DNA of 45,677 bases. Source: Betaproteobacteria bacterium (lineage in GTDB: Bacteria; Pseudomonadota; Gammaproteobacteria; Burkholderiales; JAHFQX01). The stretch lies in assembly GCA_023259135.1 (NCBI GenBank), contig JAHFQX010000022.1, positions 1-45,677 of the forward strand, written 5' to 3'. Below are positions 15,375-41,044 of this stretch, in pieces. Both the position numbers and the translations under genes were made by a program. The notes beneath the pieces were generated by a model. The model was not told the origin of the DNA. It worked only from the letters and a program-made list of their open reading frames with translations, and did no database searches. The first letter of the stretch is position 1; each line of letters begins with the position of its first letter.

Positions 15375-17093
15375 TCATAAGTCCAGCGCCTGCTGCCCCG
15401 CATTCTCCCCTCGCCCACTCGCGGGAGAGGAATCGGCATTTCCACTCCCCTCTCCCGCGAGCGGGAGAGGGGTCGGGGGAGAGGGCGGCGCCTCCGGCAA
15501 ATTCTCCACCCGCAGACTGTAGTCGTCATGCCCCCACTCGCAGCGCGAGAGCACCTGCTTGGGAATCTTCTTCACCGTGAGATTCGAATACTCGCCCCGG
15601 CCGCGGAAAGCGGTGCATAGCACCAGCAGCGTGCGCTCCGGCCCCACCTCGTCGGAGAGTTGCTGAAGCTGCTCGTGGGTCAGGTTCGCCGTCGTGACGT
15701 AGATAAAATCCCGCTCGGTGGAATGGCCGTGCTGCCAGTACACCGAATCCGAGGGCGCATAGGTGAAGCCCTCCAGTTTGCACAGCGCCTCCGCCAGCAT
15801 GGCGGCGTTGTAGCCGGTGTTGATGACCCAGTTGCCCCACTTGTCCTTTTCCAGCAGCGAGGGCGCGAGACGATAGTAGCGGAAGCCACCGCCGCCGCGC
15901 CACGAAACGGCCTCGGTGATGCCACCGGGGTCTTCGCCGTCAATGACCTTCTTCAGGCGCGGAATGATGTGGGTGTGGCAGTGCTCACCCAGCTCCACCA
16001 TAATCCAGCGCCGGCCCATCTTGTGGGCGACGGCGCCGGTGGTGCCGGAACCGGCGAAGGAGTCGAGGACGAGGTCGCCTCTGTCAGTACAAATGTCCAA
16101 CACTCGGCAAACAAGGTCTTCTGGCTTTGGTGTATCGAACACCGCCTCCTCGCCAAATAGCGCCTTCTGGTGCGCCTTTGTCTGGCGTGTTGTATCAAGG
16201 TCATTCCAAATTGTTGGGTGGGGTCGAGATGGGTTCTCAGGTGCGAATTCGCGTGTGTACGGAACCCATCTCTTACTGCCATTCTGCTCGCGGAGCTTCC
16301 AAATCAACTCGCTCTTCGCAATCAGATCGTCAACGGCAATCTTACCCAGCGCCCAGCGGGCTTCTCTGCCGTCATCATGGATGGGCAAGACCTCCGTGCC
16401 ATCCGGCGCCACGACCGGAAAGAACATTGAGGGGCGATCTGATCGGAGGCTATTTTTTCCATTCTTTTTCAACAGGCGGTCTCTATAAGGGCGTGTGCTC
16501 TCCGAATCCGGAGGCCGATAGGCGTCAAGAATGGAAATGTCCTGACGCTGCTTGAACCCCCTAGCACCGGGCGTCTTGCTGACGCAAAGCACATACTCAT
16601 GGTCAGGCGTAATGGGCACCTTGTTGTCGTTCGGGCTGTCAACCTTCTTCCAAATGAATGAGGTTACGAAGCAACCCCGCCCAAACACCTCATCGCACAA
16701 CACCTTGAGGTAATGCGCCTCGTTGTCATCAATGGTGATCCACAGCGAACCGTCGTCGGACAGCAACCGTCGAATCAACTCCAGCCGGTCGCGCATCAGC
16801 GACAGCCAGATCGAATGCTCCACCCCGTCGTCGTAATGCGTGAAGGCGCTGCCGGTGTTGTAGGGTGGATCAATGAACACGCACTTCACCTTTCCCGAAA
16901 ACTCCGCTTCCAGCGCCTTCAGCGCCAGCAGGTTGTCACCGAAGATCAGCCGATTGTCGAAAAAGTCAGTCTCCGTGACACGGTGTTTCGCGTGATAGGA
17001 CTTCTCCGGCTCCTCCAGCAAAATCCGCGGCTCCAGCTTCGGCCGGTTCTCCTTGCCGATCCAGGTGAGTTCGAGTTTTTGTTTCTTCCTCAT
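15375..17093 (-). CDS. mod: type III DNA methyltransferase subunit (Mod), beta-class N6-adenine type
   Basis: 572 residues. DPPY (VFIDPPYNTGSAF, residues 73-85) precedes the SAM-binding LDSFAGSGTTGAVAHKMG (343-360), the beta-class order of type III Mod subunits. The middle part (about 150-320) is the likely target recognition region. It methylates the recognition site and is needed for Res to cut. The ATG at 17093 (MRKKQKLELTWIGKENRPKL) overlaps the hepT2 stop as ATGA. The last 37 residues or so (proline- and glycine-rich, PPSPPTPLPLAGEG...) are the translation of a REP-like palindromic element and are not part of the enzyme fold. Confidence 0.92.
   Translation of the reverse strand: MRKKQKLELTWIGKENRPKLEPRILLEEPEKSYHAKHRVTETDFFDNRLIFGDNLLALKALEAEFSGKVKCVFIDPPYNTGSAFTHYDDGVEHSIWLSLMRDRLELIRRLLSDDGSLWITIDDNEAHYLKVLCDEVFGRGCFVTSFIWKKVDSPNDNKVPITPDHEYVLCVSKTPGARGFKQRQDISILDAYRPPDSESTRPYRDRLLKKNGKNSLRSDRPSMFFPVVAPDGTEVLPIHDDGREARWALGKIAVDDLIAKSELIWKLREQNGSKRWVPYTREFAPENPSRPHPTIWNDLDTTRQTKAHQKALFGEEAVFDTPKPEDLVCRVLDICTDRGDLVLDSFAGSGTTGAVAHKMGRRWIMVELGEHCHTHIIPRLKKVIDGEDPGGITEAVSWRGGGGFRYYRLAPSLLEKDKWGNWVINTGYNAAMLAEALCKLEGFTYAPSDSVYWQHGHSTERDFIYVTTANLTHEQLQQLSDEVGPERTLLVLCTAFRGRGEYSNLTVKKIPKQVLSRCEWGHDDYSLRVENLPEAPPSPPTPLPLAGEGSGNADSSPASGRGENAGQQALDL
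15404..15487. repeat. REP-like palindromic element within the 3' end of mod
   Basis: A 26-bp near-perfect palindrome at 15447-15472 has arms CCCCTCTCCCGC and GCGGGAGAGGGG around GA. A second, imperfect unit lies at 15404-15431 in facing arrangement. This sequence type is widespread between genes in Proteobacteria; here it is read through in frame and supplies the Mod C-terminal tail. Confidence 0.7.
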
Positions 17094-17443
17094 GCCGATT
17101 GTGCTTTGAGCGCGCGCAAGTTGGGTAGCAAGGCGGGAATATCGCCACGGATAATGCTCCACAGGGTGTCGTTATCGATCCCGAGATACCCGTGTATCAA
17201 CCGGTTGCGCGCAGCGATGACGAGCCGCCACGGAATCTGCGGATTAGCCGCGCGGACCGAGTCCGGGACATGGGTCGCCGCCTCGCCGATCAGTTCCAGG
17301 TTGCGCACGGCAGCGTCGTAATTCAGTCCGCTGGCAACGAAACCCGCTTGATCGAGGCCGTCGGTATAGGCGATGACTTTTTCAGCAAAGCCAATCATAT
17401 CGTCGATATAAAACCGCCATTCACGCTGCCCAGCATCAGACAC
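17090..17443 (-). CDS. hepT: HepT-like HEPN ribonuclease (toxin), second module
   Basis: 117 residues. HEPN motif RNRLIHGY gives Arg79, His84 and Tyr86 in the R-x4-H-x-Y pattern, within AAVRNLELIGEAATHVP...VIAARNRLIHGYLGID. The GTG at 17443 is chosen because AAGGAGG lies 7 bases upstream and it yields MSDAGQREW, like the first copy; a longer frame to 17461 would place a ribosome site inside the gene. It overlaps mntA2 by 8 bases, and its TGA overlaps the mod ATG. It is only distantly similar to the HepT at 14668-15027 outside the motif. Confidence 0.88.
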   Translation of the reverse strand: MSDAGQREWRFYIDDMIGFAEKVIAYTDGLDQAGFVASGLNYDAAVRNLELIGEAATHVPDSVRAANPQIPWRLVIAARNRLIHGYLGIDNDTLWSIIRGDIPALLPNLRALKAQSA

Positions 17444-17951: not shown

Positions 17952-19418
17952 TCAAGCCCAGTACGGGACGTATTCGGCGAACTTGGATGACGGCGAGTCC
18001 GGGTCTTTGCGCTTGATGCGCCCGGCGTTCACTGCGTCCCGGATCAGGTTGGATACCTGGGTGCGCTGCCGCTCTTGCATCTTCAGACGTTCCCGCAAAC
18101 TGGTGTTGGTCATGGCGCCGCTGGAAAGGTACTTTAGTACGGCATGTTGGTAGCAGGCCTCGACGCGCTCGGATTGGGACATGTCGGCGAACTTGCGCGG
18201 GGCGTAGAGAATGACCTTGAATGCCTTTTCCGTCTGGACGAACGCGACCGGTGGCAGGCCGAACAACTCGACAGCCGTCACGACCTTTTGAAAGCCGGTG
18301 CCGCGTTCCTCGCAGATGCGGTAGCGGCGGAAGGCTGCGGCGAGAATCTCGTTGCGCGATTCGGGCGTCGCGCCGATGAGGCGGTCAACCGTCTTGCCGG
18401 GAAGCAGGCCGCCCGGGTTGGTGAACTCGATGCGGTCATCGAAAACCTCGAGCATCGGCCCTGCGCCGGCGATGGTGAAATCCTGGTGGATGAGAGCATT
18501 AGCGATCAACTCGCGTAACGCGATTTCAGGATAGACAGTAACCTCGGCGCGCAAGGCCTCGCGGATGACTTCGCTATGGGGAAGGATGTGCTTGAGATAC
18601 CCAATGAGTCCCTCAAAGCCGATGGCGTAGCCTTTTTGGCCAACCAGTTCGTCAATGGTTTCCACCTTGTTGAGGCCGCGATAGTGGATAACGCGGAGGC
18701 GCTTTCTTTGCAGCGTGTCGAATGGCCGCAGGTCGCGTGCTGCAGCGATGGCGCCGAAGTGAGTGAGATATCCGCCATCGCCATCGGGTTCGATCACCTT
18801 CTCGTCGACCAGCCAGTGCAGCGCGTCGTCATAATCCGCCGGCATCGGCCGTTCAAGAAGCTTGCAGATCGTTGCGAGGTCGAGTTGTGCGAGCAGGTCC
18901 GGCAGGGCGAGACGGGATGAGGCGCGCAGTTCTTCCCAGCGCGGTGCGCGGCTGTTCATCAGCATCGCTCCGATTTCCTGACGCGATGCTGAGCGGGTTG
19001 TTCCACCGGAACGGACCCAGGCGTGCTCGATCGATTTGCCGCGGCGATGCACGGGTTTGACCGGCTGCTCCGGGACATGCACGAATAGAATCGGCGCGCG
19101 CTCCCAGTCGACTACCGCGTGGTCAATCACGATCGGCGGCTCCAGCGCATCCCGGCCCAGGTTGGCCAATTGGCTGACTATGGTCTCGACGGTTTCCTGC
19201 GTCACCCCTGTTACGCTTCCCAGCGAATTATCGATGCCAAAGACCATGAATCCGCCGCCGGAGTGGTTGGCAAAGGCCGACAGATGCTCCACCAGTCGCT
19301 CCTTGTTGGGCGACAGCCCGCTCTTCCAATCGAGTTCATTTGGCTCCGTGACTACCGGAGACAGGCTTTGCCGAAGGATGGCCACGCCGCGCGCGATCCA
19401 TGGTTTTGGCGTGTTCAT
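17952..19418 (-). CDS. AlbA_2 (Schlafen-type) domain protein with GHKL-like ATPase region
   Basis: 488 residues. The AlbA_2 nucleic-acid-binding domain occupies about residues 20-150, with ELDWKSGL, FANHSGGGFMVFGIDN and the later HAWVRSGGTTRSASRQEI. A GHKL-like ATP site follows (about 310-400): LRELIANALIHQDF, MLEVFDDRIEFTNPGGLLPG and ERGTGFQKV. A winged helix closes the protein. This is the COG2865-type architecture; members are annotated as transcriptional regulators or defence-linked proteins, and no precise function is known. The ATG overlaps the upstream dinD-remnant stop (ATGA). The gene lies 76 bases before the mod' start in the same direction. Confidence 0.85.
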   Translation of the reverse strand: MNTPKPWIARGVAILRQSLSPVVTEPNELDWKSGLSPNKERLVEHLSAFANHSGGGFMVFGIDNSLGSVTGVTQETVETIVSQLANLGRDALEPPIVIDHAVVDWERAPILFVHVPEQPVKPVHRRGKSIEHAWVRSGGTTRSASRQEIGAMLMNSRAPRWEELRASSRLALPDLLAQLDLATICKLLERPMPADYDDALHWLVDEKVIEPDGDGGYLTHFGAIAAARDLRPFDTLQRKRLRVIHYRGLNKVETIDELVGQKGYAIGFEGLIGYLKHILPHSEVIREALRAEVTVYPEIALRELIANALIHQDFTIAGAGPMLEVFDDRIEFTNPGGLLPGKTVDRLIGATPESRNEILAAAFRRYRICEERGTGFQKVVTAVELFGLPPVAFVQTEKAFKVILYAPRKFADMSQSERVEACYQHAVLKYLSSGAMTNTSLRERLKMQERQRTQVSNLIRDAVNAGRIKRKDPDSPSSKFAEYVPYWA

Positions 19419-36318: not shown

Positions 36319-36804
36319 TCAATCCCGGAAATTCTGATATTGCAAAGGGTAGTCGGTGACGGCTTTACGCACCAGTTGGATGGCCTCCTGGAGGAGGTCC
36401 CTCTTGGCGCCCGACACCCGCACCGATTCGCCCTGGATGCTGGCTTGGACCTTGAGCTTGCTGTCCTTGAGCAGCTTGACGATGCGCTTGGCCAATTCGG
36501 TGTTCACGCCCTGCCGGACGGTGATCTGTTGCTTGACCTTGTTGCCGGAGATTTTTTCGATGTTGCCCAGCTCCAGGCAACGCACATCCACGCCCCGCTT
36601 GGCCAGCTTGCCGACCAGAATATCGCGCGCCTGGCTGAGCTTGAAGTCGTCGTCGGCGTAGGCGACCAGCACGGTCTCCGACAACTCCACCCGGGCATCG
36701 GAACCCTTGAAATCAAACCGGGTGGAAATCTCCTTGTTGGCTTGATCCATAGCATTGCGGATCTCCACGCGGTCCACTTCGGAAACAATGTCGAACGAAG
36801 GCAT
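36319..36804 (-). CDS. yajQ: YajQ-family nucleotide-binding protein
   Basis: 161 residues. [37 protein letters not shown] and [29 protein letters not shown] are hallmarks of DUF520/YajQ, two ferredoxin-like folds. Members bind tRNA/nucleotides and in Xanthomonas the cyclic di-GMP signal. Not functionally linked to the hyp genes by sequence. Confidence 0.93.
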
Positions 36805-36818
36805 GGGATGCTTCCTCG

Positions 36819-37400
36819 CTAAGGTTGGGAAAGATCCAATTTTATGCTGCAGGACATGAGGGGCAAGCCGGTACCGTCATCGAATTCCGCGGCCGCCTCC
36901 ACCCCCAGCAACGCCACCTCCTCGGCGCTCAGATCGGGCCTTTGATAAGCGGCGAACATGGCGCCCAGGGCATAGTCGCTGCCGCTGCCGTAGGCGTAAA
37001 AGCGGGAGAATTCCTGCACCGTGCGATGCGCCGCCACGCCGAAAATCCCCTTAGGGCTGGCAATCAGCACATCCATGCGAGAGGACTCCAGGGCATCTTC
37101 CTTGTCCTCCTCCGGCTGCAGGAAATAATCTTCCTTCAAGGCGGCATGAAGTTTCTGCCAGACGCGAAATATCTCCTCTACCCGATCCAGGCCATGGATG
37201 GGGTAGCGGGCAAAGTAATCGGCCAGGATCAACTTGAAGGTAGCGGTGCCGGTGACCCCGAGGTAGCTGTCGCCGACTTGCAAAATCTTGCCGTGGTTCT
37301 CCACGTAGGCCGCCGACTCCTTGCCGGAACCCCATTTGGTCAGGGTATCCGCGGCAATGGCGGCGAACCCGCCCTTTTTGACAACCGCAACGGTACTCAT
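36819..37400 (-). CDS. proteasome-like Ntn hydrolase (BPH type)
   Basis: 193 residues in the HslV/20S fold: [20 protein letters not shown] at the N-terminus, [18 protein letters not shown], and [19 protein letters not shown] as the conserved GSG segment. Aligned with HslV (TTIVSVRRNG...GGD), the mature first residue is Ser (codon 2), with Asp18 and Lys38 at the positions of catalytic Asp17 and Lys33. No hslU, mpa or other unfoldase is adjacent. The protein is best placed with the betaproteobacterial proteasome homologs (BPH), described as double-ring peptidases of unclear role. It has no propeptide; Met removal would expose Ser. It lies between yajQ and argG. Confidence 0.8.
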
Positions 37401-37427
37401 GGTCCCGACCGGATAAGCCTTCCCAAA

Positions 37428-38669
<1,242 letters not shown>

Positions 38670-38719: not shown

Positions 38720-39640
38720 CTATTCGGCCTGCTCCAGCCGCCCCAGCAGCAAATATTCCATCAATGCCTTCTGGGCGTGCAAGCGGTTCTCCGCCTCGTC
38801 CCACACCACCGACTGCGGCCCATCGATCACCTCGGCAGCGACTTCTTCCCCGCGATGGGCCGGCAGGCAATGCATGAATACCGCATCGGATTGGGCCAAG
38901 GCCATCATCTCGGCGTCCACCTGCCAATCCTGAAAATCCCGGCGGCGCTCCTCGTCCTCGGCTTCGAAGCCCATGCTGGTCCACACGTCGGTGGTCACCA
39001 GATCCGCGTCCCGGGCCGCTTCCATGGGGTCCGTAAATTCTTCGTAATGATCGGTGCCGTACAGCCCGGCCCGCTCCGGCTCCACTTCGTAGCCCGGCGG
39101 GGTGGAAACATGCACGTTGAAGTCGAAGATTTCCGCGGCCTGCAACCAGGTGTTGCATACGTTGTTGGAATCGCCGATCCAGGCCACGGTCTTGCCGCGG
39201 ATGGGGCCGCGATGCTCGATGAAAGTGTAGATGTCGGCGAGGATCTGGCAGGGGTGATACTCGTTGGTCAGCCCGTTGATCACCGGCACCCGGGAATGGC
39301 CGGCGAAGCGCTCGACGATCTCCTGCTCGAAGGTGCGGATCATGACGATGTCGCTCATGCGGGAAATCACCTGGGCCGCGTCCTCCACCGGCTCGCCGCG
39401 ACCCAACTGGGAATCGCGGGTGTTGAGGTAGATGGCCGAGCCTCCCAACTGATGCATCCCCGCTTCGAAGGACAGCCGGGTGCGGGTGCTGGCCTTCTCG
39501 AAGATCATCACCAGGGTGCGGTCCAGCAACGGCCAATAGCGCTCGTAGCGCTTGAACTTGTCCTTGATCCAGCGGGTGCGCCGGAAGAGGTATTCATACT
39601 CCTCCAGGCCCAGGTCTTGCATCTGCAAAAAATGCTTCAT
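38720..39640 (-). CDS. argF: ornithine carbamoyltransferase
   Basis: 306 residues. Carbamoyl phosphate site [21 protein letters not shown], ornithine loop [13 protein letters not shown] and [12 protein letters not shown]-type motif ([13 protein letters not shown]) are present. It makes citrulline, the substrate of ArgG downstream. It follows argD by 15 bases. Confidence 0.96.
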
Positions 39641-39655
39641 GGCGAACCTCCCCGC

Positions 39656-40825
39656 TTACCCGAGGAACTCCCGGATCAGCGGCGCCAGTCCCTCCACCAA
39701 CTGGACCGCTTCGGCGGAGCTCATCACCAACGGCGGCACCAGCCGGATGACGTTGTCCGAGGTGACATTGATGAGCAGGCCCCGCCCCAGCGCCCGGGCC
39801 GTCAGTTCGCCGCAAGGTTTCGCCAGCTCCACCCCGATCATCAGCCCTTGGCCGCGGATCTCGGTCACTCCCCTCGCCCCGGCCAACCCCGCCCCAAGCC
39901 CCGCGCGGATCTGCTCGCCGATGCGGGCCGCGTGCTCCAGCAGGCCGTCTTCTTCCATCACCGCCAAGGTAGTCAAGGCTGCCCGGCAGGCCAGGGGATT
40001 GCCGCCGAAGGTGCAGCCGTGGCTGCCGGGCTTGAACAGCGCAGCCGCTTCGCCCCGAGCCAGACACGCCCCCACCGGCACCCCGGAGCCCAACCCCTTG
40101 GCCAGGGTCATCACGTCGGGCTTCAGACGGCCGTGCTGATGGGCGAACCACTTTCCGGTGCGGCCGATGCCGGTCTGCACCTCGTCCAGCATGAGCAGCC
40201 AGCCGAAGCCGTCGCACAAGGCCCGCAAGCCGTCCAAGTAGTCCGCCTGGGGCACGTTCACTCCCCCCTCGCCCTGGAACGGCTCCACCAGCACCGCCAC
40301 CACGTTAGGGGCATGCTTGGCCACTTGTTCCACCGCCGCCAAATCGTCGTAAGGGACCCGCAAGAAACCCGTCACCAAGGGCTCAAAACCCGCCTGAGCC
40401 TTGCGGCTACCAGTGGCCGACAGGGTGGCTAGGGTACGGCCGTGAAAGCTTTTTTCCATGACCACGATGGCGGGATTGTCCACTCCCTTGCCGTGCCCCC
40501 ACAGGCGAGCCAGCTTGATGGCGGCCTCGTTGGCTTCCGCCCCGGAGTTGCAAAAGAACGCGCCGTCCATCCCCGACAAGGCGCACAGCCGATCTGCCAG
40601 TTGTTCCTGGAGGGTGACCTGGTAGACGTTAGAAGTGTGGATCAGAGTCCGAACCTGCTCGCACAGCGCCGTCACCATCCGCGGATGGCCGTGGCCCAGG
40701 CCGTTCACGGCCACCCCGGCCAAGGCGTCCAAATAGCGCTTGCCCACGGCATCCCAGAGCCATACGCCCTCGCCCCGGACAAAAGCCACCGGGAGCCTGC
40801 TGTAGGTATTCATCACATGGGACAT
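39656..40825 (-). CDS. argD: acetylornithine aminotransferase
   Basis: 389 residues, PLP class III. GSRKAQAGFEPL, LMLDEVQTGIGRTGKWFAHQ and the Schiff-base lysine in VMTLAKGLGSGVPVGA are clear. It makes N-acetylornithine from the semialdehyde and may also serve in lysine synthesis. The start at 40825 (MSHVMNTYSRLP) fits the family better than the extension to 40888. First of the argD-argF-argG string. Confidence 0.94.
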   Translation of the reverse strand: MSHVMNTYSRLPVAFVRGEGVWLWDAVGKRYLDALAGVAVNGLGHGHPRMVTALCEQVRTLIHTSNVYQVTLQEQLADRLCALSGMDGAFFCNSGAEANEAAIKLARLWGHGKGVDNPAIVVMEKSFHGRTLATLSATGSRKAQAGFEPLVTGFLRVPYDDLAAVEQVAKHAPNVVAVLVEPFQGEGGVNVPQADYLDGLRALCDGFGWLLMLDEVQTGIGRTGKWFAHQHGRLKPDVMTLAKGLGSGVPVGACLARGEAAALFKPGSHGCTFGGNPLACRAALTTLAVMEEDGLLEHAARIGEQIRAGLGAGLAGARGVTEIRGQGLMIGVELAKPCGELTARALGRGLLINVTSDNVIRLVPPLVMSSAEAVQLVEGLAPLIREFLG

Positions 40826-41044
40826 GGTTTCGCCGCCGATAGAAATGGAAAGCGAACACGGCGGCCCGCCGCCGCCGTGTTCCGTCAACCCGTTATCAAG
40901 GCGCTATCTTTACCGAATCCTCGTCCCGATGCAAGAACCGCCCCGGTCTCGAAAATCGGCTTGCCACCCCCTCCCCCAAGCCGCCATAACTAGAACCATC
41001 GGCAGAAAAACCAGTTCCCAAAACCCATTTGCTGCAATGCAAGA

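Follow-up and report, generated by a model that had tools for sequence, protein, structure and literature searches.

An argG-linked BPH of the proteasome family with serine as mature residue 1 in an otherwise Thr1 subfamily

The closest described systems are the BPHs of Thiobacillus denitrificans (Td-BPH, PDB 5OVS, 5OVT) and Cupriavidus metallidurans (Cm-BPH, 5OVU), which were presented by Fuchs et al. (PMC5777263). According to that paper, BPHs have no propeptide and no partner unfoldase and form double rings of 14 subunits; in Td-BPH the residues Thr1, Asp17 and Lys37 were described, epoxomicin was found to modify Thr1 covalently, and a link of bph to argG was reported. The same source assigns an N-terminal Ser to all BPHs outside the Betaproteobacteria, and a survey from 2021 (PMC8665760) gives Thr1/Ser1 as part of the triad of proteasome-like proteins generally. 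In a literature search which covered a minority of the subscription journals no further reports of Ser1 BPHs were found beyond these two papers. Ser1 BPHs as such are therefore not new, and the general novelty implied by a preliminary description of the locus studied here does not hold: PMC5777263 already describes Ser1, Lys37, the missing unfoldase and the link to the argG operon. The new part is modest and consists in the occurrence of Ser1 inside the argG-linked, otherwise Thr1 subfamily.

The gene in question (bph) is located at positions 36819..37400 on the minus strand of the 45,677-nt stretch of DNA that was analyzed (the window) and comprises 193 codons plus stop. A phmmer search of the PDB (E 0.001) with its product returned only two distinct sequences, both solved BPHs (5ovs, Td-BPH, 2.2e-79; 5ovu, Cm-BPH, 4.1e-39), and these values exclude a chance likeness. 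An AlphaFold model built from 36 aligned relatives (pLDDT 84, pTM 0.84) had 5ovs_A as its top Foldseek match (E 5.7e-24, TMq 0.85, 68% identity). At E 0.001 no Pfam domain was found in the window protein; at E 1 PF00227 matched 36/36 relatives, the window protein itself being below the PF00227 cut-off. Membership of the HslV family was rejected (17.2 bits versus a cut-off of 157.75 for NCBIfam TIGR03692; no adjacent hslU), and likewise that of the bacterial 20S beta subunits (15.3 bits versus 191.9, NCBIfam TIGR03690). The assignment to the BPH type made in the preliminary description is upheld by phmmer, fold search and synteny, all of which point to BPH.

With Td-BPH the window protein shares the fold, Asp17, Lys37, Gly50, the GSG segment and the argG operon at 68% sequence identity; the two differ at residue 1, which is Thr in Td-BPH (PMC5777263) and Ser here, and at residue 173, which is His in Td-BPH and Asp here. 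Even the nearest relative reaches only about 71% identity. Cm-BPH has the BPH fold and the catalytic residues in common with it but is 39-40% identical in the fold search, and its gene lies in a pyruvate dehydrogenase operon (PMC5777263). HslV, represented by the host's own copy on contig C39 and by the HslVs in the PDB, follows the same proteasome fold and Thr1-Asp17-Lys33 logic, but has an adjacent hslU, which is absent here. The Ser1-type BPHs outside the Betaproteobacteria resemble the window protein in their N-terminal Ser nucleophile (PMC5777263), whereas they have TCN codons and mostly Val/Ile49 where the window gene has AGT, Thr49 and additionally Val3; their searched loci lack the argD-argF-argG-bph-yajQ setting.

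Translated from the minus strand, the 193 amino acids of the product begin with M-S-T-V-A-V-V-K-K. From the in-frame stop of argG to the Ser codon, the ATG at 37398..37400 is the sole start codon, as the frame runs from the last argG codons through the argG TGA and nine codons, none of them ATG, GTG or TTG, into the bph ATG. An alternative start that would make Thr residue 1 was ruled out, there being no usable start codon upstream. Met-Ser is a usual substrate of methionine aminopeptidase. Because the bph ATG is the only usable start, Ser (AGT, 37395..37397, minus strand), the putative nucleophile, is bared once Met is removed and Thr is residue 2, just as had been proposed beforehand. The nucleophile position follows immediately after Met, without a propeptide.

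The remaining catalytic residues are intact. Asp17 (37347..37349), Lys37 (37287..37289), which is the equivalent of Lys33 (PMC5777263), Gly50, Ser138 of GSG (36984..36986; Ser129 of the 20S proteasome, Ser139 of Td-BPH) and Asp173 are all present in the alignment. Thr49, at the methyl-contact position equivalent to Ala46, and Gly50 of the oxyanion hole are encoded at 37248..37253, and Val3 at 37389..37391, all on the minus strand; in the 20S proteasome, residue 3 touches the methyl group of Thr1 (PMC4792962). Asp17, Gly50 and Gly137/Gly139 of GSG are kept in 241/241 distinct BPH-like proteins and Lys37 in 240/241, the partial proteins L134 and L137 being left out of these column counts and of the trees. 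With Ser counted as 1, Lys is residue 37 versus 33 in the host's own HslV (TTILSVRR..., L001), which bears out the earlier statement that it stands four residues later. A long acidic pore loop, as described in PMC5777263, is present at residues 94-102 (QPEEDKEDA, 37092..37118, minus strand), where model confidence is low.

The gene order is argD-argF-argG-bph-yajQ, and of the operon types associated with BPHs (argG, PDC or Hsp33) the locus represents the argG type. All genes are on the minus strand: argD (39656..40888, longest ORF, the true start probably lying further in), argF (38720..39640), argG (37428..38669) directly upstream of bph, and yajQ (DUF520, 36319..36804) directly downstream, 14 nt past the bph stop. 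Where the flanks of distinct argG-type loci were long enough, argG is found upstream in 84/88 and yajQ at most 300 nt downstream in 85/91. No unfoldase was found nearby, as had been noted before: the 12 further ORFs of the window that were run through Pfam include none of the Clp/HslU type, and AAA-type matches among them are restricted to an SMC/RecN-like ORF and DnaB. A complete hslV-hslU pair is present in the host genome on a different contig from bph. With respect to plasmid-borne spread, tblastn gave no match in 72,556 plasmid records.

According to the preliminary description, the case would fall if all BPH proteins already had Ser1. The outcome is mixed, with 45 Ser1 versus 196 Thr1 among 241 distinct BPH-like proteins; a first tally of 244 (199 Thr1, 45 Ser1) still included three partial proteins, and the residue-1 counts by sample given below leave out L124 and L138, which have no readable start, and the fragmented L274. 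In the latter (genome G185) the BPH is broken into fragments that lie in different frames and seems to be a gene in decay. We take the host's order to be that holding the Betaproteobacteria, since named betaproteobacterial contigs carry the same proteins as its genomes (e.g., L077 and L043) and Thiobacillus and Hydrogenophilus hosts are nearest by neighboring genes. Within this order 152 of 399 sampled genomes have a match. Residue 1 of the best copies was readable in 149 of them (all except G715, where the N-terminus is missing, G630 and G750) and is Thr in 146 and Ser in three, namely in the window gene (AGT), L043 (AGC) and L164 (TCG). L164 is a TCN Ser1 protein of another subfamily, not of the argG type. 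Three host-order genomes (L167 in G706, L168 in G521 and L169 in G482) contain a Thr1 argG-type copy together with a TCN Ser1 copy of another subfamily. As L164 and L167-L169 group together outside the argG-type clade, the window gene and L043 are the only argG-type Ser1 BPHs of the order sample.

The named betaproteobacterial contigs comprise 79 loci, 77 of them readable: 75 are Thr1, L077 is the same protein as L043, and L132 (Formimonas) has Ser1 encoded by TCA. Elsewhere in the class sample 45 genomes have a match, and the 44 readable ones divide into 38 Ser1, all TCN, and 6 Thr1; one further order outside the host's contributes 19 Thr1 BPHs. In a family outside the host's order (L294-L311) all 18/18 genomes examined have a Thr1 BPH, against the published rule. 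The rule of Thr1 inside and Ser1 outside the Betaproteobacteria appears to fail both ways here; the divide at this boundary is not strict. Thr1 in Betaproteobacteria, from which the window gene (Ser1, AGT) departs, is a reported distribution and no membership requirement for BPH. The unusual part is that the window BPH belongs to an otherwise Thr1 argG-linked subfamily.

The codon of Ser1 is AGT in the window gene, AGC in L043/L077 and TCN in 43/43 other distinct Ser1 sequences. AGT is not odd as such, AGY making up 56/144 Ser codons in ten neighboring ORFs. ACY is one base change away from AGY; TCN is not. In a tree of host genes (ArgG+ArgF+ArgD+YajQ; 46 rows thinned from 62, quick method with SH-aLRT only) the host falls into a group of 12 rows (98) that includes Thiobacillus and Hydrogenophilus hosts and in which every other member is Thr1, whereas the partner of L077, the copy of L043 on a named contig, is the Thr1 host L063 (99). 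Two changes are enough on this tree, and a single origin of the two AGY Ser1 residues in the form of host sisterhood was rejected (54.6 log units, AU p 1.4e-12). As the neighboring genes separate the two AGY hosts, each lying among Thr1 hosts, Thr was likely exchanged for Ser twice and independently. Altogether we consider it probable that the window gene codes for a true BPH of the argG-linked type, i.e., for a peptidase of the proteasome family that is self-compartmentalizing and independent of ATP, and that a single base change (ACY to AGY) in its lineage turned Thr1 into Ser.

The BPH tree itself, which is based on a short alignment of 190 columns and on 106 rows thinned to 77 by near-identity, leaves room for the main rival, in which the Ser of the window gene is a relic of an old BPH and Thr1 arose in the remaining argG-type BPHs. 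There the window protein is the first branch of the argG-type clade (rest 85/73), Ser1 is found in the closest outgroup rows (L003/L005), and a Thr1-only clade with both Ser proteins outside is not rejected (p 0.23); moreover, Fuchs et al. (PMC5777263) made the case that both variants, Ser1 and Thr1, are of old origin. An ancestral Ser is nevertheless rather unlikely. Its codon would have had to cross from the TCN block of the 43 other sequences to AGT, which requires either two changes at once or a passage through Thr or Cys, the host genes place the host deep within Thr1 hosts with conserved synteny, and the BPH tree is compatible with the host topology too (p 0.13 for the host-tree group, p 0.31 for L043+L035). 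The BPH data equally admit a single AGY clade (p 0.34), and both AGY proteins have Val3 and Thr49, as would be expected if they had one origin and gene conversion, or a transfer to the identical position between argG and yajQ, had carried bph alone from one lineage to the other. Such a replacement must, however, fall exactly between argG (ppnP in one case) and yajQ, and L043 (68% identical to the window gene) is no closer to it than Thr1 proteins such as L064 (71%); we regard this history as improbable. A misreading of ACT as AGT in sequencing or assembly is very improbable: a single base in one assembly decides, and no second genome of the host's family is in the sample, but a second lineage has AGC (L043, L077) and the genome is 98.99% complete with 0.47% contamination.

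Ser1 might also mark lost catalysis in a degraded or repurposed BPH. The BPHs of the two species assayed were inert on standard peptides and casein in vitro (PMC5777263), for which reason proteolysis by any BPH is to be called putative, and Ser1 is less efficient in the yeast 20S proteasome (PMC4792962). Against this, nothing is lost from the triad, the oxyanion hole, GSG or the pore loop, the reading frame and the operon are undisturbed, and 38/44 readable class members outside the host's order have Ser1, so that we give a loss of catalysis little credence.

For an active Ser1 BPH the 20S proteasome offers a model, in which the nucleophile gives up its proton to Lys33, which is supported by Asp17, and the amine is handled by Ser129/Asp166 (Huber et al., PMC4792962). 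The yeast beta5-T1S variant retains activity but loses 40-45% of it toward one substrate, and its sensitivity falls 3.7-fold for bortezomib and 1.8-fold for carfilzomib; its Ser Oγ occupies the place of the Thr methyl, since this methyl normally contacts residue 3, Ala46 and Lys33 (PMC4792962). By analogy, Met of the window protein would be taken off co-translationally to expose Ser1, and 14 subunits would build a double ring with Ser1 toward the chamber. Asp17 would orient Lys37, Lys37 would deprotonate Ser1-Oγ, and the latter would attack the peptide to form an acyl-ester which is released by water, while Ser138 and Asp173 would adjust the N-terminal amine. Small or unfolded substrates might be selected by the acidic pore loop without an unfoldase. 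An effect of Ser1 on rate and inhibitor response of the BPH is a reasonable expectation: without compensation by the pocket, Ser1 would work more slowly than Thr1 and respond somewhat less to inhibitors, and Val3 may help to hold Ser.

Given the contacts of the Thr1 methyl in the 20S proteasome (PMC4792962), residues 3 and 49 were inspected across the family. Among the 241 proteins Val/Ile49 is found in 36/45 Ser1 versus 0/196 Thr1 proteins, and among those with Thr49, Val3 is found in 6/6 Ser1 proteins, including the window protein (Ser1, Val3, Thr49), versus 7/77 Thr1 proteins. Exceptions are L263, which combines Ser1 with Ala49 and Ile3, and L312, a Thr1 protein with Ile49 among 19 further Thr1 proteins added later; the added genomes contributed one more Thr1 clade and this exception, and no further switches. 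In independent contrasts, for which L275 was left out of the tree, on average 2.7 of 4 pairs changed in the same direction and none in the opposite one, the four well-supported pairs being too few for statistical power (p 0.25-1). The apparent covariation of residues 3 and 49 with Ser1 is a lead, not a result. A wider reading, tentative and in our view doubtful, is that the nucleophile of BPHs has changed repeatedly between Thr and Ser in nature, always within one proteasome fold, and that in Ser1 BPHs the room left by the missing Thr methyl is filled again; if so, the refilled space would block the unproductive Ser rotamer of yeast T1S and restore efficiency.

These proteins bear on the old question why proteasomes insist on Thr over Ser. 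A Thr1 subfamily with two apparently derived Ser1 members provides natural near-matched pairs, e.g., L043 and L035, which were placed in one genus, and such pairs could reveal the cost of Ser1 and a compensation by the pocket at residues 3 and 49.

Several minor observations concern the neighboring genes. YajQ is a candidate functional partner of argG-type BPHs; it is not mentioned in the text of the BPH paper (PMC5777263), and a literature search for YajQ and proteasome gave no paper on BPH judging by title and start of abstract. In the loci L094, L101, L102, L106 and L112 yajQ follows bph only after about 2.7-3 kb, seemingly displaced by inserted genes. Several relatives (L064, L067, L075, L077, L084, L094 and L135) have a small gene between argG and bph, and its copy in L084 matches the nucleoside phosphorylase PpnP (PF06865). 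This small gene is missing from the window, where the gap between argG and bph (37401-37427) measures 27 nt. Elsewhere in the window, ORFs for a DNA methylase (N6_N4_Mtase, 15375-17162) and a Schlafen/AlbA_2 protein (17952-19418) lie close together on the minus strand.
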